In this document: positions 16,866 to 30,070 of the stretch, in pieces
How the letters are laid out: each line of letters begins with the position of its first letter
Numbering within the stretch: the first letter of the stretch is position 1
Source: Thermoflexus hugenholtzii JAD2
GTDB taxonomy: Bacteria; Chloroflexota; Anaerolineae; Thermoflexales; Thermoflexaceae
NCBI RefSeq assembly: GCF_900187885.1
Contig: NZ_FYEK01000003.1
Span: 186,001 to 250,000 of the forward strand
Reading direction: 5' to 3'
Length of the DNA: 64,000 nt
The notes under the pieces: generated by a model
Database searches by the model: none
What the model saw: the letters and a program-made list of their open reading frames with translations, nothing else
Told to the model about the DNA's origin: nothing
Made by a program: the position numbers and the translations under genes

Positions 16866-18731
16866 CTACCGCCGTAGCCAGTGGCTGATCCCATGGCGGG
16901 TTTTCTCCCAGTAGAAGGGCCGGGTGAAGAGCTGCCAGAGCGCCTTGTAGGCGGCGATACTGTGCAGAACCCAGTATACAGGCGTCAGCAAGGCCCATGG
17001 GATCAGGTCATAATTCCCTCGTTTGAAGCCGGCCAGCATGTTCAGGTAAATTGCGATGGCGTTGCCAAACAGTAGATTCAAGAGACTGATGTAAAGAACC
17101 GGGGGTGGGAAGAAGGGATCCAGGGTGCGGGTTTGTGTGATGATCCACCATAGGAACATGGCCCACATCCAGGGCGCGGACAGAAAGGTCAGTGGGGTTC
17201 CGCCCACCAGCAGGAGGAAGCCGGCAGCTTTCCGGAGCCCCACGCGTCGGATCAGCTGCCATGGGTTTCGCGTGTGAACTAGGGTGGTTTGCATGTAGCC
17301 TTTGATCCAGCGGGAGCGCTGGCGGATCCAGTTTCTGACCTGAGTGTTGGCCTCTTCGTAGGTGGTGCTGGGGATGACCCCAACCTCCCAGCCCTCTACG
17401 GCGGCCCGGATCCCCAGGTCAGCGTCCTCGGTGACGTTGAAAGGATCCCAGCCGCCGAGCATGCGCAGCCGTTCGGTGGGGAAATGATTGCTGGTCCCGC
17501 CAAGAGGAATCGGTAGCCCCAGTCGGTGTAGACCGGGAAGCATGTAGTCGAACCAGTATGAGTATTCCAGGGTGAACATGCGGGTCAGGAAGTTCTCTCT
17601 TGCGTTGAAATAGTTCAAGGCGGCCTGGACGCATGCGAGCCGTTCTCCGCCTTTCCGGAAGGCTAGCACGGCTTTCTTCAGCTGGTCAGGTTCTGGCTGA
17701 TCCTCTGCGTCGTAGATCACTAGGTAATCCCCCGTGGCAAAGAACAGGCCGACGTTGCAGGCTTTGGGTTTCGTCCGGGGAATTGCGTTCGGGATCCGGA
17801 TGAAGTAGACGTTCCCGGGAGGGCGCGCGGCTTTGGCTGCCTCCAGGGTTTCTTGGTCATCTTCCTCCAGCAGGAGGAGGATCTCCAGCTTTTCCCTCGG
17901 GTAATCCAGGCGGGCCAGATTGGTCAGCAACGTCTGGATGATCTCGGCCTCCCGATATACCGGAACCAGGATCGTGTAGCGAGGAAGCTCGTCATCTTTC
18001 AAGGTCCGGATGTCTTCTTCCCGGATTGCGATCTCCCGCTCGTAGCGGGCGCCTACCATTGAGACGGCGAATTTGAAGAGAATGCTTGCGAGGAAAAAGA
18101 TATTGATCGCAGCATTGATGGCGATCAGGGTTGCTCGGGGGGCGATGCCCAGGGCGAGGAGAGTTCCGACGAGAAGCAGCGTCATGACTAAGAACTGACC
18201 GCGGGTGAAAACCGTGTGGGCGGACTCCTCTGGCCGGCGGTAGCAAAGGCCATAGGTGGCGGTGGTGAGGATCTCCGTTCGGAAGGCTCGAAGCAGGATC
18301 TGCCGGATATCCCATTCAGTGGTGGCTCGGATCCGGGCGATGGGTTGTCCGAACAAGCGTTGGGCTTCTTCCAGGACGATGGGGTCCGGCCGGCGAGCAG
18401 TGGCGATCTCCAGGCCTTCTTCTAGCTGGCGGAGGGGGATCAACTGGTGGGCCAGCATCTGCTCCGGTGGGAACTGGTGGAGCAGTTCCATGTCGGGAGG
18501 CTCCTGGAGGAGGTCCACAAAGGGGATTCCCCAGAGCTCGGCCAGCGTGCGGTAGAGGTCGTAGCGGCGCACCAGGCCGCGGGACAGGAGGATCTGTCCG
18601 AGCGGCTCCCGGGTGCGGGCCTGGATCTCCAGCGCCCATTCCAGATCTTCCGGGCGGAGCAGGCCGCGGGCGACCAGCGCCTCCCCCAGTCGAAGCGGAC
18701 GATGAGAAGTCTGTTCCAGAATGCCTTCCAT
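16866..18731 (-). CDS. Membrane glycosyltransferase family 2 (cellulose-synthase-like) with N-terminal MshEN c-di-GMP-type domain
   Basis: A 621-residue processive GT2. Residues 10-80 hold two copies of the MshEN pattern, RLGEALVARGLLRPEDLEWA and PLGQILLSRGLVRRYDLYRT, a known c-di-GMP-binding module of type II/IV secretion ATPases. A membrane pair (about 185-225) precedes the catalytic domain, which shows LVPVYREAEII, DAEDQPEPDQL (DxD-like), NVTEDADLG (TED) and the product-channel QRSRWIKGY (QxxRW). Several C-terminal helices would form the export channel. It is followed upstream in the genome by a BcsB-like gene in the same direction, so it is likely to make and export a beta-glycan under c-di-GMP control. 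The regulatory claim is inferred from the domain. Confidence 0.85.
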   Translation of the reverse strand: MEGILEQTSHRPLRLGEALVARGLLRPEDLEWALEIQARTREPLGQILLSRGLVRRYDLYRTLAELWGIPFVDLLQEPPDMELLHQFPPEQMLAHQLIPLRQLEEGLEIATARRPDPIVLEEAQRLFGQPIARIRATTEWDIRQILLRAFRTEILTTATYGLCYRRPEESAHTVFTRGQFLVMTLLLVGTLLALGIAPRATLIAINAAINIFFLASILFKFAVSMVGARYEREIAIREEDIRTLKDDELPRYTILVPVYREAEIIQTLLTNLARLDYPREKLEILLLLEEDDQETLEAAKAARPPGNVYFIRIPNAIPRTKPKACNVGLFFATGDYLVIYDAEDQPEPDQLKKAVLAFRKGGERLACVQAALNYFNARENFLTRMFTLEYSYWFDYMLPGLHRLGLPIPLGGTSNHFPTERLRMLGGWDPFNVTEDADLGIRAAVEGWEVGVIPSTTYEEANTQVRNWIRQRSRWIKGYMQTTLVHTRNPWQLIRRVGLRKAAGFLLLVGGTPLTFLSAPWMWAMFLWWIITQTRTLDPFFPPPVLYISLLNLLFGNAIAIYLNMLAGFKRGNYDLIPWALLTPVYWVLHSIAAYKALWQLFTRPFYWEKTRHGISHWLRR

Positions 18732-18800: not shown

Positions 18801-18879
18801 GTATGGCTATGCGAACCCGTTCTGGGCTGGCCCTTCGGCCCTCTTTATCCAGATCCCGGTTTATGACTATGCGAATCCG
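18801..18879. repeat. Two imperfect 19-bp direct repeats 60 bp apart
   Basis: GTATGGCTATGCGAACCCG at 18801 and TTATGACTATGCGAATCCG at 18861 differ at four positions and are exactly 60 bases apart. The second copy overlaps the 3' end of the BcsB-like gene. No function is evident. Confidence 0.4.
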
Positions 18880-20830
18880 CGGGGCGCCCGGACCCCTCTA
18901 AACCCGCCGGCCGCCTCCGCACGACCCGCGGATACGCCCAGATCAAAAACCCCAGCACCCCCACCAGCACCACCCCCAGTGCCCACGGCCAGAGTCGCTC
19001 CCACACCCCTCCCCCCACCGGCGGCAACGGCTCCACTCGCCACCCACTCCCCCGCACCCGCCACGCCACCGGCTCGCTCCCCACCGGCCACAGCCACACA
19101 TCCCCCTGTAACCCAAACCACCCCAGCTCCCGGTCCATCCCCTCCACCCATCGGCCGAGATCCACCTCCCGCCCCCATCGCGTCAGCACCAGCACCTCCC
19201 TCCCCCGATCCTCGAAGGCCTCCAGAACCAGAAACGCACGCCCCGGATCCACCCGGAACCCCTCCCGCCCGTCCACATCCACCAACCGAAACGGACGAGG
19301 ATCCAGCGGCAGATCCAGGCCCGCCAGCCCCTCCGCCTCCTCCGTGATCAGCGCCAGCCCCCCGGAGGTCCGCACCGCCTCCTCCCATGGACGCACCTCC
19401 GGACGCAGGGGACGACGCGTCGCCTGCTGCAACATCACCACCAGATCCGCCGCCGCCTGAAGGGTCGACGCGTTCAGCGGACGCAGGCCCACCCCAAACC
19501 CCGGCATCAAGCTCTGGGGGAAGCGCTCGAAGCCCGGCGGCAGATTCTGCCCCCGCTGAAACTCCAGGCTCGAGCGCCCATCGATGAACACCATGATCGG
19601 ATGCGCCCCCACCCGACACTCCCCTCCCGGCGGCGTGTAATCCACCCGGACGCTCACTGTGTTGTCCCGCCGCCACAACCCATCCGGAAACGCGATCCGC
19701 CGATCGAAGGCGCCGACCGGCAGCGGCTCCGCCGCCACCAGCCCCCCGTTCAGGAAGACCAACAGGCTCGCCGTCCCACCCTCCGGAACCGGGGTGGCGC
19801 GGCCGACGAGGCGCAGGCGCACTCCTCGAACCGGGCCGCCGAGATCCGCCTGGGAGAGGAACAGCCGGGCCTCCATCGGCCCCGAACCCCGCATCTGAAT
19901 CTGAGGCCAGCCGAGCTCGGCCAGGGTCACCGGCCCGGATATGCCCTCCTCAGCGGGAGCGATCCGTTGCGGGATCACCTCCGGAAACGCCATCACCTCC
20001 CCATACCGGATCACCCCCTCCGCCAGCTCCACCACCCGCTCCGGTGGGGCCTGGATCTCCAGAGCCGGGAACGCGTCCTCCGCATCGAAACGCAGACGAA
20101 GGCGAGCCTCCCCCCGGCGGATCTCGATCCGACGACGCCAGGGATCCGCTGCGCCTGCAAAGGCCCCCTCCCCCAACTGAATGGAGACCGTCAGGGGATG
20201 CCGGCCGGCCAAACGCGCGCCGAGGGCGACCAAGCGCAAGGCCGCCGTCGCCTCTTCCGGCCCGGGATCCGCGGGAAGGTTGATCTCCAGCACGCGCAGA
20301 TCCGGCGGCCAGAATCCGGCGATCGTCCGGGGCGGCTCCGGGGATCCTTCCAGACGCACCCGCAGGTCCTCCAGCTCCACCCGCTCGCTGGAGCCCGCCG
20401 CGCAGATGTCCAGCCGCGGCGGGGGGATCAGCCGCCACACCAGCGTCAACCGCCCCCGGGTCACCGGCGCCCCCCGCAAGGAGACCGTCAACGTCCGCTC
20501 GGCCAGCCCCAGCGGGACCCAGGTCAACGTGCGCACGCCATCCCCGATCTCCAGCCGCCCGCCGTTCAGGCCGGGCGTGCTGCGCAGGCGACCGATCAGC
20601 TCGACCGGCCGCAGGCCCTGCGGCACCGGGATCGTCACCCACTGCTCCCCGGAAGGCGCGCTCAGCACCAGAGGCTCCGAAACCCCCAGCTCCCGGAGGG
20701 AGATCTCCCATGCCGCCGGCGAACCCTCCTGAAGGGGACTCGTCGGGATCGAAAGGGAAGGGAAACGCACGAAGCCCACCAGAGACAAGGCAAGGACCCA
20801 ACGTTTGGCTGATTGCTTCAACGCTCTCAT
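18845..20830 (-). CDS. BcsB-like exopolysaccharide export/synthase accessory protein
   Basis: A 661-residue exported protein. After a basic start (MRALKQSAKRW) comes a signal-type hydrophobic segment (VLALSLVGFVRF). The body is beta-rich and repeated in the BcsB manner: jelly-roll elements followed by flavodoxin-like segments, with typical phrases such as RLVGRATPVPEGGTASLLVF, FPDGLWRRDNTVSVRVDYTP and IMVFIDGRSSLEF. One C-terminal membrane helix (WPWALGVVLVGVLGFLIWAY) ends in a short basic and His/Ser tail. BcsB guides nascent cellulose across the envelope and activates the synthase. It lies just upstream of the MshEN-GT2 in the same direction. The ATG at 20830 was chosen because the next upstream ATG adds an uncharacteristic leader. 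Confidence 0.8.
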   Translation of the reverse strand: MRALKQSAKRWVLALSLVGFVRFPSLSIPTSPLQEGSPAAWEISLRELGVSEPLVLSAPSGEQWVTIPVPQGLRPVELIGRLRSTPGLNGGRLEIGDGVRTLTWVPLGLAERTLTVSLRGAPVTRGRLTLVWRLIPPPRLDICAAGSSERVELEDLRVRLEGSPEPPRTIAGFWPPDLRVLEINLPADPGPEEATAALRLVALGARLAGRHPLTVSIQLGEGAFAGAADPWRRRIEIRRGEARLRLRFDAEDAFPALEIQAPPERVVELAEGVIRYGEVMAFPEVIPQRIAPAEEGISGPVTLAELGWPQIQMRGSGPMEARLFLSQADLGGPVRGVRLRLVGRATPVPEGGTASLLVFLNGGLVAAEPLPVGAFDRRIAFPDGLWRRDNTVSVRVDYTPPGGECRVGAHPIMVFIDGRSSLEFQRGQNLPPGFERFPQSLMPGFGVGLRPLNASTLQAAADLVVMLQQATRRPLRPEVRPWEEAVRTSGGLALITEEAEGLAGLDLPLDPRPFRLVDVDGREGFRVDPGRAFLVLEAFEDRGREVLVLTRWGREVDLGRWVEGMDRELGWFGLQGDVWLWPVGSEPVAWRVRGSGWRVEPLPPVGGGVWERLWPWALGVVLVGVLGFLIWAYPRVVRRRPAGLEGSGRPADSHSHKPGSG

Positions 20831-20883
20831 GGGACCCACCGTTCCAGATGATGAGTGCAGGATCATGCCCTCCAACTGTAGAC

Positions 20884-22994: not shown

Positions 22995-24326
22995 ATGGAA
23001 TATCCGGTCTGGGTGGTTCCCTTCCTCACGGCCCCCATGCTGATCCCCCTGGTGGCAATTCCCCATGTGATCGTCGCCCAGTTCGCCGTCGGGGGCGGCT
23101 TCCTCCTGGCGGACGGCGTGACGTGGGCCTATCGGCATCGTCGGGCAGACATCCTGGCTTACCTGCGGGATCTCGCCCGCTTCTTCGTGCTGCTCACGAT
23201 TGTCTTCGGGGCCGTCACCGGGGTGGGCATCTGGTGGACCATCGGGCTCACCGCGCCGGAGAGCACCAGCGCCCTCATCCACGTCTTCGTCTTCGGCTGG
23301 GCGACCGAGTGGGTGGTCTTCGTCCTGGAGATCGTCTCTGCCTTCGCCTTTTATTACCTCTGGGATCGGCTGCGGCCCCGGGAGCACATGGCGATGGGCT
23401 GGATCTACGCCGCCTCGGCCTGGCTCAGCCTCGTGCTCATCACCGGGATCACCTCCTTCATGCTCACGACAGGCCGCTGGACCCCGGAGCGGGATTTCTT
23501 CACCGCCTTCTTCAACCCCTCCTTCCTGCCCCAGGTGCTGATCCGGACCAGCGGGTCGCTGGCCATCGCCGCCTTGTGGATCGGGGTGCACCTCTCCTTC
23601 CGGGCCCCGGAGCCCTTGCGCGAGGAGATGGTCCCTCGCCTCTCCCGCTGGGCCATGGCGGGCATGGCGCTGATCCTGGTGGGCGGGCTCGGCTACTTCG
23701 CCGTGCTGCCGGATCACGCGCGGCTGAACATGATCCGGGCGCCGCTGCTGCTGATCATGACCGCTTTGAATTTCGGGGCCACGCTGATCGCCTTGACGGC
23801 CTTCGGCCTGGGTCACCTGCGGGGCGGCCGCTGGATCAACCCGCCGGAGGCGCTGCTGATGCTCCTCATCGGCGCAGTGGCCATCACCAGCGGGGAGTTC
23901 CTCCGGGAAGGAGCGCGCAAACCGTATCGCATTGAGGGCTACATTTTCTCCCCAGGCGTCCGCGTCGCGGAGGTCCCCACGCTGCAACGGGACGGCCTCA
24001 TCGCTCATTCCCCCTGGTTGCAACGATATCTGCAGGAGAATCTGGGGTTGCCGGAGGAAGCCCTGCGGGATCCGGCCCGCCTGCCGGAGCCCCTGAAGGT
24101 TCAGGTCGGGGAAGCCCTTTACAACTATCATTGCGCCGCGTGTCACGCCCTGGATGGCTACAACGGGATGCGCCCGCTGATCCAGCCCTGGACCTCGGAG
24201 ATCATCGCTGATGCCGTCCGGCATCTGCATCGGACCAACCCGGCCATGCCGCCGTGGCTGGGGAACGAGGCGGAGCGGGAGGCCCTGATCGCCTATCTCG
24301 TCACGTTGCAGAAAGGAGGGCCGTGA
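22995..24326 (+). CDS. bd-type oxidase subunit I-like protein with C-terminal cytochrome c domain
   Basis: A 443-residue membrane protein. Residues 10-310 contain eight or so helices resembling the CydA four-helix core: LVAIPHVIVAQFAVGGGFLL has the heme-ligand-type His, and VFGWATEWVVFVLEIVSAF has the conserved helix-3 Glu. The quinol-binding Q-loop of classical CydA is missing. The C-terminal 90 residues form a monoheme cytochrome c with CAACH near residue 384 and a likely axial Met in NPAMPPWLGN. This suggests electrons enter from a c-type carrier rather than quinol. It is co-transcribed with the next gene (TGATG overlap). The ATG at 22995 follows GGAGG. Oxygen reductase activity is inferred. 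Confidence 0.78.
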   Translation: MEYPVWVVPFLTAPMLIPLVAIPHVIVAQFAVGGGFLLADGVTWAYRHRRADILAYLRDLARFFVLLTIVFGAVTGVGIWWTIGLTAPESTSALIHVFVFGWATEWVVFVLEIVSAFAFYYLWDRLRPREHMAMGWIYAASAWLSLVLITGITSFMLTTGRWTPERDFFTAFFNPSFLPQVLIRTSGSLAIAALWIGVHLSFRAPEPLREEMVPRLSRWAMAGMALILVGGLGYFAVLPDHARLNMIRAPLLLIMTALNFGATLIALTAFGLGHLRGGRWINPPEALLMLLIGAVAITSGEFLREGARKPYRIEGYIFSPGVRVAEVPTLQRDGLIAHSPWLQRYLQENLGLPEEALRDPARLPEPLKVQVGEALYNYHCAACHALDGYNGMRPLIQPWTSEIIADAVRHLHRTNPAMPPWLGNEAEREALIAYLVTLQKGGP

Positions 24327-25369
24327 TGCCTCCCATCCCGAAGCCCGATCCCCTGGGGATGCCGATCCCGGCCGGTTACCTGTTCGCCCTTAAGGTCTTC
24401 GGCTTCTTCCTGCACATGGCCTTCATGCAGCTCTGGCTCGCCGGGCTGCCGGTCGCAGTGGTCCTCTGGCGGTTCCGTCCCCATGTCGCCGAGCGCCTGA
24501 TCGCCGCCATGCCCTTCGCCATGGCCTTCGGGATCAACGCCGGCATCGTCCCGCTGCTCTTCCTGCAGACCCTCTATCCCCAGTTCTTCTACCCGGCCAC
24601 CATCCTGCAGGCCTGGTTCTGGTTCCTGATCATCCCGCTGCTCCTCATCGCCTACACCGCGGTTTACCTGGCGGCCTTCGGGCGCTGGCGGGTCCTCGCC
24701 AGCCTGATCGCCGCGCTCCTGCTGACGTGGATCGGCGCCCAGTTCGCCGCGGCCATGACGCTGACCGCCCAGCCCGAGGGATGGATGGGGATCTTCCGCG
24801 CCACGGCGACAGGGGGCGCCGTCCACGGATTCGCCCTCGCCCTGGATCGGGAGGCGCTCCTCCGGCTGGGGCTGATGGCGGGGATGGCCTTCGGCACGGT
24901 GGCGGCCTTCCTGGCCGGGCTCGCCGGTTTCGGGCGCCGGGATTCGGAATTTGCTGCCCAGGTCCGGCCGCTGGTCCCTCTGCTATATGTCATCGGCCTG
25001 GGGCTCTTCGGCCTGGCCGGGAGCCTTTACGCGCCGACGGTGGCGGATCGGCTGCCGGCGGCGCTGCAGGGGGCGGCAGCCTTCAGCATGCCCCTCGCGA
25101 CCCTGCTCGCCGGGCTCTATGGGGTCCGTCCGGGTCGTGGGGCGGCGGGGGCGCTCATTCTCGCGCAGCTCGGCGTGCTCCTGAGCAACGCCATCGCTCG
25201 GCAAGTTGTCCAAGCTGCGGAGATCGGTCAGTGGGTGGATTTGGGGCAAGTTCCCGTGCGTGGGGAATGGGGAAGCGTGGCCCTCTTCCTGGTCACCCTC
25301 CTTCTGGGGCTCGGCGTCTTAGCCTGGATCCTCCGCACGGCCTGGGTTCGGGTGCGGGAGGCTCCTTAA
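24326..25369 (+). CDS. Second membrane subunit of the bd-like/heme-c module
   Basis: A 347-residue polytopic protein with about nine hydrophobic segments and no heme c motif. It begins at an ATG that overlaps the stop of the preceding gene (TGATG), with AAAGGAGGG upstream, so both are made together. It has a His in helix 1 (KVFGFFLHMAFMQL) and a large hydrophobic core reminiscent of a CydA/CydB-like partner rather than a transporter (AMPFAMAFGINAGIVPLLFL, TAVYLAAFGRW). The family is not securely recognised, and its role as partner subunit is inferred from the overlap. Confidence 0.6.
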   Translation: MPPIPKPDPLGMPIPAGYLFALKVFGFFLHMAFMQLWLAGLPVAVVLWRFRPHVAERLIAAMPFAMAFGINAGIVPLLFLQTLYPQFFYPATILQAWFWFLIIPLLLIAYTAVYLAAFGRWRVLASLIAALLLTWIGAQFAAAMTLTAQPEGWMGIFRATATGGAVHGFALALDREALLRLGLMAGMAFGTVAAFLAGLAGFGRRDSEFAAQVRPLVPLLYVIGLGLFGLAGSLYAPTVADRLPAALQGAAAFSMPLATLLAGLYGVRPGRGAAGALILAQLGVLLSNAIARQVVQAAEIGQWVDLGQVPVRGEWGSVALFLVTLLLGLGVLAWILRTAWVRVREAP

Positions 25370-25387: not shown

Positions 25388-25420
25388 GCTGGGGGGGGAG
25401 CCTGCCGACTCCCCCCCAGC
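25388..25420. terminator. Bidirectional hairpin between convergent genes
   Basis: GCTGGGGGGGGA pairs with TCCCCCCCAGC (one G bulge) around a ten-base loop. It lies between the oxidase-like operon (plus, ending 25369) and the phosphodiesterase fusion (minus, ending 25434). A short TTGTTT follows on plus. It probably terminates both transcripts. Confidence 0.6.
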
Positions 25421-25433
25421 TTGTTTGCATCCG

Positions 25434-28400
25434 CTACGGTGTCACGGTCGGGCATCCGGTCCCGGTGCAGACGATGCGACCCTGGATGGCCGGGGCCACT
25501 GGGCTGGTGGCCTGAACGTAAGCCTCCAGGACCTGGTCCATCAGCTCGCGGGTGTAAGCCCGGCCGATCAGCACCGGATAGCCATCCCCGCCTGAGGCCA
25601 TGAAGTCGTTCATAGCGATGGTGTAGGTCGCCGCGGTGGAGAAGTCCACGGCGGGGCCGGTGCAGGAGCCATCCGCCGCCTGGCGCACGGCGCTCACCAC
25701 TCGGCTGCCGGCCGGCGCGCCGATGTTATAGGTGAAGCACAGACCCGAGACCTGAGGGAACCGGCCGTCCGCGGCGGGCATGCGGGAGACGCCGTTCTCC
25801 AGGATGGCCTTGAGCTCCGCACCGTTGACCTGAAGGGTCACCACCACGTTGCCGAAGGGCAGCACCTCCAGGATGTATCCCCGTCGGATGTTGAAGAACC
25901 CGGTCGCCGCATCCACATCGCCCATCCGGGTGAGATCCGCCCGCAGGCCCCCAGAGTTGGTGACGGCGAAATCCACCCCATACGTGAACCGCATGGCGTC
26001 CGTCACCAGGTTCCCGATCCTCGACTCGCAGGTGCGACCCAGCGGGTTGCCACAGGCGTCCGCCCGCGGGATGGCGACCCTTGAGAGGCCGACGACCTGG
26101 TTGAGGATGGGCGCGAGCTCCGCCTGCAGTTCGTCCAGACGGGCCTGGATGGCCGGATCAGGAGCCATGCCGATGTTCCATGGGAGATGATAATCGGCGG
26201 TCTTGTAGACCACGCGCCGCGTGTCCGCATCCACCACCAGCCGGACCCGGGTGAAGCGGCGCCCGTATTCCAGGCTCTCGACAACGAGGACCCCGTTGGG
26301 CCGCAAGGTGTTCACCAGCGCATGGGTGTGGCCGCCGATCAGCAGGTCGAACCCCCGCACCTGATCCGCCAGATCAATCAGCGGCCCGGTCGGCGCATCC
26401 AGCGGGCCCATCGCGCCCAGATGCCCGACCCCGACGATCACCCGGACCCCACGGGCGCGCAGCCGGTCCGCCTCCCGCTGGATGGCTGGCAGGGGATCGG
26501 TGACGATGAAGTTCTCCATCCGGCCGGGGAAGACCAACTGAGGAGTATCCGGGGTGGTGAAGCCGATCACGCCGATGGGCACCCCATCGACCTCAAAGAC
26601 CCAGGACGGCTTCCACTCCGCCGGGGTGCGCAACGTGCTCTGATCCACCACGTTCGCGGAGAGATAGGGATACCGCGCCAGCGGGATCAGGACCGTGCGC
26701 AGATAGGTGGCCCCACGGTCGAACTCATGGTTCCCCAGGACGTCCGCATGGAGCCCCATCATGTTCCAGATCTCAATGGTCGGCCGGTCCCCGAAGAAAT
26801 TGGAGATGGGCGGGGTGGCCCCCACCGAGTCCCCTGCGGCCAGGAGGAGGGTCTCCCCGCGCGCCTCCGCCCGGAACCGGTCGAACCACGCCTTCAGGAA
26901 GGCCGCGCCGCCGATGGGGAAGAAAGGCCCCACCGTGTCCGCCCGCTCGCTCCGCGGCAGCAGGTTGCCGTGGAAGTCGTTGACGGTCAGGATGGTGATC
27001 TCTTTCCATTTCACATCGTGATGGGTGCGGCCCTGCCCCTCGAAGAGCTCATACAGGATGCGCCCGCTGGCGTTGCGCGGCCCGGGGATCCCCAGGTAGA
27101 AGGCGATGGTGGGCGCGAAGTCGATGGCCCGCACGCCGGAGATCCGCATGGGGCGGATGCCCGGACCGGCGGCGACGAAGACAGCGTGCATATTGATGTT
27201 GTGCTCCAGGTCCACCAGGTCCGGCATGTAACCGTGTTGCCCGAAGAAGGGGGCGTCGGCGATCTTCACGCCCGGCGTGGGGGCGTCGAACTGGTAGGGC
27301 GGGAAGAGCACCACCACCACGTCCCCGCTGCGGTTCGGATGCAGGGAATCCCCGCCGGGGAGGTTCCGGAGCTCCTCTTTCTTGAAGATGCGATCCACCA
27401 CCTTCGCCGAGGGGTTTTCTGGATCCCGGAGGTTCATGAAGGCCTCGATGGCCGCGTTGCGCACTTCCTCGTAGGTGATCCCGGGCGGCAATGAGGGGTT
27501 CACGTAGATCTGCACCGTCCCACCGGCCCAGCAGGCCTTGGCCAGGTCTGTGGTCGCCGCGCCGCAGTTGCTGGTGGCCATGGCGCCGCTGGCGTGCAGG
27601 GAGACGCCCTTCACGCTGGCCTCATACAGCACGCGGCGGGCGTTGACCGCCTTCCACTGGGGGGCGAAGCCGTGGTCGGAGGAGACGAAGACGGCGGCGC
27701 CGGGCATCCGGCGTCGGGCCAGGGCCAGGGTGGCGTCAGCCCCCTGATAGGCCCGGCGGATGAAGCCCTCCCGGACCGCCACCCGGCCATCGGGCACCCC
27801 ATCCCGGTCCGCATCATCGTAGACCGGGTTCGGCGTCCCGTCAGGCGCCATGGGGGTCACCAGGGCCATGAACTGATGGGAGAACTCATCGGTGACAGGA
27901 TAGCCCAGGAAGAGGACCTCCGTGTCCGGCTGGGCGACGGTGAGGATGTATTCCAGGATGCGGTGATGGGCTTCCTCCCAGAGCAGCCCCTGCTCCACAT
28001 AAGTTTCCTCATCCACCAGACCGGCTTCCAGCGGCGCATAGTCCGCCGCTGTGGCCGTCGGGAAGTCCCGCGCGAGGGTCTCCTCGAAGGCCCGGGAGCC
28101 CTCCGCGCCCCGAGCATTGAAGGAGGCGTTGATCCGGGTCACCGAGGTGAAGTAAAGGCGGAAGCGGGAGAGGTCCGACGTCAGATCGATCACCTTGACG
28201 TAGAAGCCGGCGGTCTGGCCTGCGCGGGGGCCGGTGAGGGAGACTTTGATATCCGCCCACTCCCCCTGCCGAAGGTTCGCGGCCACCACGCTCGCATCCT
28301 TATCGGTGTCCAGGATCACCCGATCGTAAGTGATCCGCCCATCATCGGTGCTGTCGTAGATCAGCACGTGATACGTCCGATGGGGGTTCACAGCGGTCAC

Positions 28401-29093
28401 CGTGGAGGTGATCACCAGCACCGTCTCCATCGGCGGGCTGAAGGACGGGGGAAGGTTCGTCCAGCCCGCCGCCGGCTGGAGGTCCACCCGCTCGTAAGCC
28501 AGACCGAAGGCCTGAGCCCCGGCAGGCTGCCCGGGAAGGTCGTAGTTCACCAGGACTCCCCGCATGGAGAAGAAGCTGCGGTAATCCACCACCGGCCCCT
28601 GGAGAGGCGGATTCAGGTTGCGGGCACCCACCCACTCCACGGAGGCGACCTTCTTGCCGGCCCGCTCCGCTGCCTGGAGCAAGGTGTCCGCCTGGAGGAT
28701 CCCGAAGGTCGCGAAGGAGGTCCTGCTGGTGAACGCATCCCCGGTGCGGTGGAAGGTGTTGTTGGTGGAGCCGTGCTCGCCGGGGCCGGTGCCCGTGGCC
28801 AGGGTATACCAGCCCACGCCGGTGTTGGGCGGGAAGGCCTGGATCAGGCCGTTCTCCCCCACCGCGCCCCGGTGCAGGAGCTCGGCGAAGGTCGGCATGA
28901 ACCTTTCCCGAGCGTAACGCTCCATCAGGTCCGGTCGCATCCCGTCCGCGGCGAAGATGATGATGCGGTCCACCGTGGGCTTGGTCGGCGGGGTCGAGGC
29001 CGCCGGCCCTGCCGGGACCGCCCCGACCCAGATCATCGCGGCCGCCGCCAGCGCCATCGCCCGGCGCATCCAGCGTGCGGAATGGGCAAACAT
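25434..29093 (-). CDS. Secreted fusion: alkaline-phosphatase-superfamily phosphodiesterase + 5'-nucleotidase
   Basis: A 1219-residue exported protein made of two enzymes. Residues 1-35 are a signal peptide ([22 protein letters not shown]). About residues 42-690 form a type I phosphodiesterase/nucleotide pyrophosphatase domain: [11 protein letters not shown] (metal Asp), [20 protein letters not shown] (nucleophile Thr region), [10 protein letters not shown] and FGQHGYM, with an inserted beta-sandwich region near 235-335. About 700-1200 is a UshA-type nucleotidase: [29 protein letters not shown], then the substrate domain with NSGGLRADL and [13 protein letters not shown] combined enzyme could take nucleotides or dinucleotides to nucleoside plus phosphate outside the cell. 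The ATG at 29093 has AAAGGGGG upstream. It lies downstream of a secreted protease gene. Confidence 0.88.
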
Positions 29094-29120
29094 CTCAACC
29101 CCCTTTCGGAAGAGGGGACA

Positions 29121-29146
29121 GGGTGGCGGCCGTGCGGCCGCCACCC
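29121..29146. terminator. GC-rich hairpin between protease and phosphodiesterase-fusion genes
   Basis: GGGTGGCGGCC and GGCCGCCACCC form an 11-bp perfect stem around a four-base loop. No T-tract follows on minus, so it may be an attenuating or mRNA-processing hairpin rather than a strong terminator. Confidence 0.45.
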
Positions 29147-29170
29147 CAAGGGCCTCCGAGGGGATCGCCT

Positions 29171-30070
29171 TCACGGCGCGATCCCGAATCCCTCCAGAAA
29201 CTCGAGCAGAAACTCGAGCGAATCCGAGATATCCGTCCGGTAGGCGAAGGCGGCGCCCTTGCAGTTGGCGTTGAGGACGAAGGAGTTGACCCCGACGATC
29301 ACCTCCGTCCCATCCTCTGTGCGGTGGAGCACCGGCCCGCCGGAGTCCCCGAAGCAGGTGCCGCCCGGCCCCACGCCCTTCCCGGGGCTATTGGAGTAAT
29401 GCAGGTTGTAGCCGTCGGTGAGGGCGCTGCGGAGGTTGACCAGGCTCACCGTCCCCACATAGCGGGTGCGCTCGGCGAGGAGCCACGGCCTCACCAGCTG
29501 CAGGCCGTAGCCCACCACGGTGAACTGCACGTCCTGCAGCCCCCGCCGGGTGGCCAGGCGGTCCAGGTAGCCCTCCGGGGCGATGTGGCCATATTGTCCC
29601 TGCGTCGCGTCCGCCGGGAGGGGCTCCTCGAACCTCACCACCCCGATGTCATGGGTGTTCGGGATGATGAGGTAACCGGTCCACTCGGGGTGCGCATAGG
29701 GCGTCCCCCAGTATCCCCCAGCGCAGGGATAGCCGGTGAAAGAGCCCTCGCAGGACTCCCCAGGATCCCAGGCAGGATCCCGTTCGATTGGCCCCGGATC
29801 GAACCAGACCTGGGCATAGGCGGGGGCGAAGCCGAGCTCGGGGTCGAAGCCGGTGCAGTGGCCGGCCGTCAGCAGCACCGTGGGCGAGACCAGGGCCCCG
29901 GTGCAGCGCCAAAGGGGGACTTTGACCTCATCATAGAAGACCACGAGGCCCACGTAGGGGTGACCGTATCCATCTGGCTGGCCGTATTGCACGGCCGCAG
30001 CGGGGGCCGCGCGGAGCAGCCCCACCATCCCCAGGACCAGCGCCAGGATCAACAGGATCCGGAACCGCAT
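29171..30070 (-). CDS. Secreted trypsin-like serine protease (S1 family)
   Basis: A 299-residue chymotrypsin-fold protease with a signal peptide ([26 protein letters not shown]). The triad is complete: His in LTAGHC, Asp in THDIGVVRF and Ser in [10 protein letters not shown]. Paired cysteines near the His and Ser (WRCTGALV...[12 protein letters not shown]...NANC) would give the usual disulfides. No propeptide activation site is obvious, as is common in bacterial members with a short N-terminus. It lies between the GYD-domain gene and the phosphodiesterase fusion on the same strand, with a 77-base gap to the latter. The substrate is unknown. Confidence 0.9.

Follow-up and report, generated by a model that had tools for sequence, protein, structure and literature searches.

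Introduction

The cytochrome bd superfamily is divided into three families, qOR, OR-C, and OR-N (PMC13189123), and our use of this classification also draws on PMC10839748 and PMC8509429. OR-N members are proposed, in PMC10839748 and PMC12342949, to pair as CydAA′. According to a 2021 review, all characterized bd-type enzymes are quinol oxidases, and one with another electron donor is wanted (PMC8509429). We found no paper describing a tested OR-C enzyme in the literature searched, outside which most subscription papers lie. The OR-C family was reportedly defined by Murali, Gennis, and Hemp in 2021; its members carry heme c at the C terminus of CydA. The same 2021 work is said to show that an archaeal CydAA′ (Caldivirga) oxidizes quinol though it is not a canonical CydAB.

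Here, we analyze a pair of adjacent genes in a 64,000-nucleotide stretch of Thermoflexus hugenholtzii JAD2 DNA (contig NZ_FYEK01000003.1, positions 186,001 to 250,000 of the forward strand; "the window"). Subunit I has the CydA core of four helices, with ligands for the active-site hemes, that marks the bd superfamily; of the features of canonical qOR, it lacks the Q-loop and, from the pair of heme b558 ligands (H186 and M393 of Escherichia coli CydA), H186. It has no quinol site and ends in a c-type heme domain, which are traits of OR-C. As far as we found, the pair would be an addition to a family described from genome sequences with no assayed member, the assignment being made by features. 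The CydA paralogue that appears to serve as its partner and the clean loss of the b558 histidine are the added points.

Results

Gene layout and neighborhood

The locus comprises the following features:

22995..24326, plus strand: subunit I gene, 443 aa (ATG at 22995, stop at 24324-24326), with a CydA-type core and a C-terminal monoheme cytochrome c domain
24326..25369, plus strand: subunit II gene, 347 aa (ATG at 24326, stop at 25369), polytopic and without CxxCH
25392..25417, plus strand: terminator-like stem-loop 23 bases 3′ of subunit II, identified by pattern scan only

The two genes overlap by one base (TGATG). The pattern scan returned four terminator-like sites in the stretch against 1.6 expected, and a search for a sigma-70-like promoter found none. 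An ATP-dependent DNA ligase gene lies upstream on the plus strand and a fused phosphodiesterase/5′-nucleotidase gene downstream on the opposite strand; with these flanks, the neighborhood offers no respiratory context.

The downstream gene (25434-29174, minus strand) is a 1,246-aa frame in which a type I phosphodiesterase domain is joined to a calcineurin-like phosphoesterase/5′-nucleotidase, and a frame of similar size lies downstream of the pair at another locus (L033). Elsewhere in the window, a family 2 glycosyltransferase gene (16866-18731, minus strand) encodes a fused N-terminal MshEN domain, a cyclic-di-GMP-binding type, and adjoins a gene for a weakly BcsB-like protein (18845-20875). 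These two may possibly form a cyclic-di-GMP-controlled polysaccharide synthase.

Subunit I retains active-site ligands of CydA

Subunit I, with eight predicted transmembrane helices, matched Cyt_bd_oxida_I (PF01654) over residues 20 to 222 above the curated cutoff (E = 1.8e-13). Ligand positions were compared in a 74-row alignment of 14 relatives, 28 divergent Chloroflexota CydA-type sequences, and 32 canonical CydA sequences (CydA and AppC of E. coli among them). The divergent Chloroflexota set, which we take to be OR-N, is called OR-N-like below; both the OR-C and the OR-N labels were set by features, not by reference sequences. The ligand counts omit L032 (a frameshifted subunit I with a 1,330-base match), the second copy in genome G238, and loci L113, L114, and L117. 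Because 4 of the 14 rows are Thermoflexus-type, a count of 14/14 refers to sequences and not to independent events. A second alignment of the relatives (A3) has 15 rows, the second Thermus plasmid having been added. The key positions in subunit I are as follows:

23064..23066, plus strand: H24 codon, lining up with H19 of E. coli CydA; histidine throughout (relatives 14/14, OR-N-like sequences 28/28, canonical sequences 32/32)
23307..23309, plus strand: E105 codon, lining up with E99 of E. coli CydA; glutamate throughout the relatives (14/14) and the canonical set (32/32)
23541..23543, plus strand: codon of I183, at the site of E. coli CydA H186; histidine lost
23904..23924, plus strand: residues 304-310, carrying the RE..RKP motif, whose E305 lines up with E445 of E. 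coli CydA; motif in all 14 relatives

The columns of E. coli CydA H19 (the axial ligand of an active-site heme), E99, H126, E445, and R448 held the identical residue in 14/14 relatives, and the E107 column held Glu or Asp in all 14. E305 and R308 of subunit I were likewise present throughout. An earlier note, made from the sequence of this DNA, had described the CydA His and Glu pattern as kept; this is borne out at the five identical columns but fails at H186. H186 and M393 are the ligands of heme b558. The H186 column contained no histidine in any of the 14 relatives (I, L, M, A, or F instead), versus His in 28/28 OR-N-like and 32/32 canonical sequences. The M393 column was a gap in 7 of the 14 and held Met only in the four Thermoflexus-type rows, where it may be an alignment accident. 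The stretch between H186 and E445 spans 259 residues in E. coli CydA versus 122 between I183 and E305 here. Being 137 residues shorter, it leaves too little room for a Q-loop, and we therefore conclude that the loop is gone, as the earlier note had claimed.

Two other enzyme types were considered and rejected. Neither subunit matched the heme-copper oxidase family COX1 (PF00115), and hhalign comparisons with COX1 gave E values of 0.14 and 0.22. The membrane urate oxidase PuuD also carries a fused cytochrome c; its N-terminal domain is PF06181, and no urate oxidase domain appeared among Pfam matches to E = 10 for 11 subunit I rows.

A cytochrome c domain is fused to subunit I

The C-terminal domain reported by the earlier note, with its CAACH heme motif, was confirmed:

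24102..24299, plus strand: residues 370-435, forming a cytochrome c domain that matches PF13442 (cbb3 type) at E = 1.3e-9

The motif reads C380-A-A-C383-H384. These two cysteines, H384, and M418 were invariant across 15 rows, and M418 is the probable distal heme ligand. PF13442 was matched in 11/11 rows of alignment A1, and CxxCH was present in 14/14 relatives. Loops presumed inside contain 3, 3, 2, and 2 Lys plus Arg residues versus 0, 0, 2, and 2 in those presumed outside, with helix ends set by hand. On these charges, the c domain is placed outside, and the fused heme c would accordingly face the presumed periplasm. Taken together, these features suggest that subunit I has kept the O2 site, has lost quinol entry, and would hold heme c in its place.

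The same observations bear on two readings in which quinol still takes part. The pair could remain a quinol oxidase, with quinol bound at another site, such as the subunit I-subunit II interface, and heme c acting as a relay or sink; the archaeal CydAA′ mentioned above is a reported precedent for quinol oxidation by a noncanonical pair. With the Q-loop and the b558 histidine lost in 14/14 relatives and heme c gained in all of them, we consider this unlikely. A quinone:cytochrome c oxidoreductase on a bd-like scaffold, resembling alternative complex III, is a role suggested for a Nitrospina bd-like protein in PMC3578206. It is very improbable for the present pair, which has no quinol site left and lacks the b558 histidine that the OR-N-like sequences keep.

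Profile comparison groups subunit II with CydA

No Pfam or NCBIfam family matched subunit II. In hhalign comparisons, its profile matched those of OR-N-like CydA (E = 3.8e-10), subunit I (E = 1.1e-6), and canonical CydA (E = 1.9e-5), with controls (subunit I or II against COX1, cytochrome b, and reversed profiles) at E = 0.0057 and upward. The match to CydB (E = 0.046 or 0.16) was at control level, and subunit II was rejected as a CydB. The earlier note was thus right that subunit II does not resemble CydB but overlooked its resemblance to CydA. Swapping the order of comparison reduced the match between subunits I and II from E = 1.1e-6 to 3.6e-4 and weakened none of the others. A separate profile run of subunit I against subunit II gave E = 6.2e-7 over 269 columns (profile positions 21-331 of I versus 31-328 of II).

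When the subunit II profile was compared with single sequences, which is less sensitive than comparing two profiles, the groups did not separate clearly: median E values were 0.007 for canonical CydA, 0.067 for OR-N-like CydA, 0.1 for CydB, 0.2 for "other" proteins, and 0.28 for subunit I. The null set of 215 polytopic frames used here was partly mislabeled, several CydB sequences and further copies of subunits I and II being counted under "other."

His30 in the first transmembrane helix of subunit II was invariant across 16 rows and aligned with the histidine that the CydA groups have in TM1. R292, also invariant, coincided with the RE..RKP motif of subunit I. The window subunit II has no Glu at the E99 position. 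We conclude from the profile comparisons that subunit II is a CydA paralogue that appears to have lost most ligands; it may keep one heme, on His30. By the same hhalign E values, the second subunit being a CydA paralogue, the pair resembles a CydA plus CydA′ arrangement. The OR-N-like group was the closest to both subunits by profile comparison.

Predicted structures

Structure prediction, a check proposed in the earlier note, yielded weak models (mean pLDDT 57.2 and 53.5), and these nevertheless matched solved CydA chains first for subunit I. The AlphaFold models were built from close-sequence alignments of three (A7) and four (A8) rows, with plasmid and genome-search relatives left out. For subunit I, Foldseek placed solved CydA chains at ranks 1 to 10 (E = 1.2e-5 to 3.1e-3). 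VIA-align gave CydA Z scores of 14.1 to 15.7 (rmsd 4.0 to 4.5 over 261 to 271 residues), with the next row at Z = 11.4. The model supports a predicted CydA fold for subunit I, heme positions aside. For the weak model of subunit II, CydA chains took Foldseek ranks 1 to 3 (E = 0.05 to 0.14), and in VIA-align short helical bundles came first, ahead of CydA chains, which took ranks 34 and 48; this mixed outcome does not show a separate fold for subunit II. Sequence searches of solved structures returned only cytochrome c domains for subunit I and nothing useful for subunit II.

Distribution and phylogeny of the pair

Subunit I has its nearest named relatives at three metagenome-assembled-genome loci with 87 to 93% identity, two of them titled Thermoflexus. 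Across 400 Chloroflexota genomes, 12 had matches at E ≤ 1e-30, at 13 loci, and a subunit II gene directly followed in 13/13. Among 72,556 plasmid records, four matched: two from Thermus thermophilus (about 29% identity for the Thermus thermophilus relative), one from Methylosinus sp. C49, and one from Agrobacterium tumefaciens. All four have a second polytopic gene directly 3′ of subunit I; the match of the Agrobacterium second gene to the Chloroflexota query covers only 29%. No relatives were found in viral contigs scanned with alignments A1 and A2. One genome (G238, contig C1) carries two copies of the pair (L095 and L096), and a separate gene of regulator size lies upstream of each copy.

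In a quick tree of the relatives, canonical CydA, and OR-N-like CydA, which carried a long-branch warning, the relatives fell together on one side of a branch, separate from the other two sets (SH-aLRT support of 99 for the relatives, 100 for canonical CydA, and 84 for OR-N-like CydA). The phylogeny within the bd superfamily that the earlier note had called for thus returned a separate group. OR-N CydAA′ of Nitrospira and Nitrospina likewise lacks the canonical Q-loop and is proposed to pair two CydA paralogues. In contrast to the pair, the OR-N-like sequences keep the b558 histidine (28/28) and have no CxxCH among those listed. In several, a cytochrome b gene also separates the paralogues, whereas the window genes are directly joined. 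In this other layout, divergent CydA paralogues flank a bc1-type cytochrome b gene (PF00033) at four Chloroflexota loci:

L080, 3536-8273: CydA-cytochrome b-CydA′
L083, 2749-7650: CydA-cytochrome b-CydA′
L091, 3470-8192: CydA-cytochrome b-CydA′
L093, 3385-8004: CydA-cytochrome b-CydA′

Regulatory genes accompany the pair in several relatives. Four of five Chloroflexota upstream candidate ORFs tested matched Crp-type regulators. Genes downstream of the pair in Methylosinus matched a kinase and a Fis-type response regulator; downstream in Agrobacterium, a kinase was matched and a response regulator is known from the record annotation. On the Methylosinus sp. C49 plasmid pMSC49c (L040, 9983-20399), the pair, a small c-type cytochrome, and the kinase/response regulator genes lie downstream of feoB and adjoin a methanobactin (copper-uptake) cluster.

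Such regulators would suit an enzyme that uses another acceptor (NO or peroxide) or serves in detoxification and not as a respiratory oxidase, as would the rarity of the family (12/400 genomes) and the four COX1 genes with which this genome is already equipped. We nonetheless judge this improbable: the active-site ligands are those of the O2-reducing CydA, and no NO-cycle or peroxide gene adjoins the pair in the window. Regulatory neighbors in some genomes might also be read as a sign of a noncatalytic or sensory heme protein. That reading is scarcely credible, since the active-site ligands are invariant across phyla and purifying selection acts on both genes (dN/dS of 0.08 to 0.11 for subunit I and 0.09 to 0.22 for subunit II against three Thermoflexus-type relatives).

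Other oxidases and possible donors in the genome

The T. hugenholtzii genome contains one PF01654 gene, four strong heme-copper COX1 matches, two NrfD-type proteins, and seven Cytochrom_C matches, including subunit I. Cytochromes that could act as donors are therefore available among the other c-type cytochromes, and the pair would add a further terminal oxidase to the four COX1 proteins. In the available text of the paper on the T. hugenholtzii genome, cytochrome c oxidase appears and no bd-type oxidase is named (PMC8129789).

Discussion

The pair is probably a cytochrome c-dependent, quinol-independent, copper-free O2 reductase of the bd superfamily, of the OR-C type. The earlier note had suggested that cytochrome c or another donor feeds a bd-type core, and this remains the best-supported reading, with the active-site ligands kept, the b558 ligand and Q-loop lost, and a heme c fused; the paralogy of subunit II and the loss of the b558 ligand had escaped it. 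We infer a mechanism in which H24, E105, and E305, the conserved CydA ligands of subunit I, would bind two high-spin hemes, and the fused heme c would replace both heme b558 and the Q-loop. A cytochrome c located in the periplasm or the membrane would donate electrons to the fused heme c, which would hand them on to the di-heme site for copper-free reduction of O2 to water. Subunit II would stand in for CydB in a pseudosymmetric heterodimer. More tentatively, and at somewhat less than an even chance, the pair may be a copper-free cytochrome c oxidase built of two CydA paralogues in which heme c outright replaces b558 and the quinol site, leaving a minimal "di-heme plus c" reductase.

With canonical bd oxidases (qOR; E. 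coli CydAB and AppCB), the pair shares the H19, E99, E107, H126, E445, and R448 positions and the predicted CydA fold of subunit I; it differs in having no Q-loop, no H186, a fused heme c, and a partner that is not CydB-like. In the archaeal CydAA′ of Caldivirga, two CydA paralogues replace CydA and CydB, as in the pair. In contrast to that system, the pair is bacterial, heme c is fused, and quinol oxidation is not expected.

With the quinol machinery gone, heme c gained, and the active site kept, the pair is a clear candidate, found in a thermophile, for a bd-type enzyme with a nonquinol donor, and the plasmid relatives in Thermus thermophilus, a genetically workable species, make the donor question testable. 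It would also present a case of a second CydA replacing CydB in bacteria and of a cytochrome c oxidase with no need for copper; the CydA-paralogue partner is the part most worth following. The methanobactin genes beside the Methylosinus pair, a single case, hint at a role in copper starvation. If the proposed function is true, the pair would be the first member of the bd superfamily shown to draw electrons from a donor other than quinol and would give a copper-starved cell a cytochrome c oxidase that it could use.
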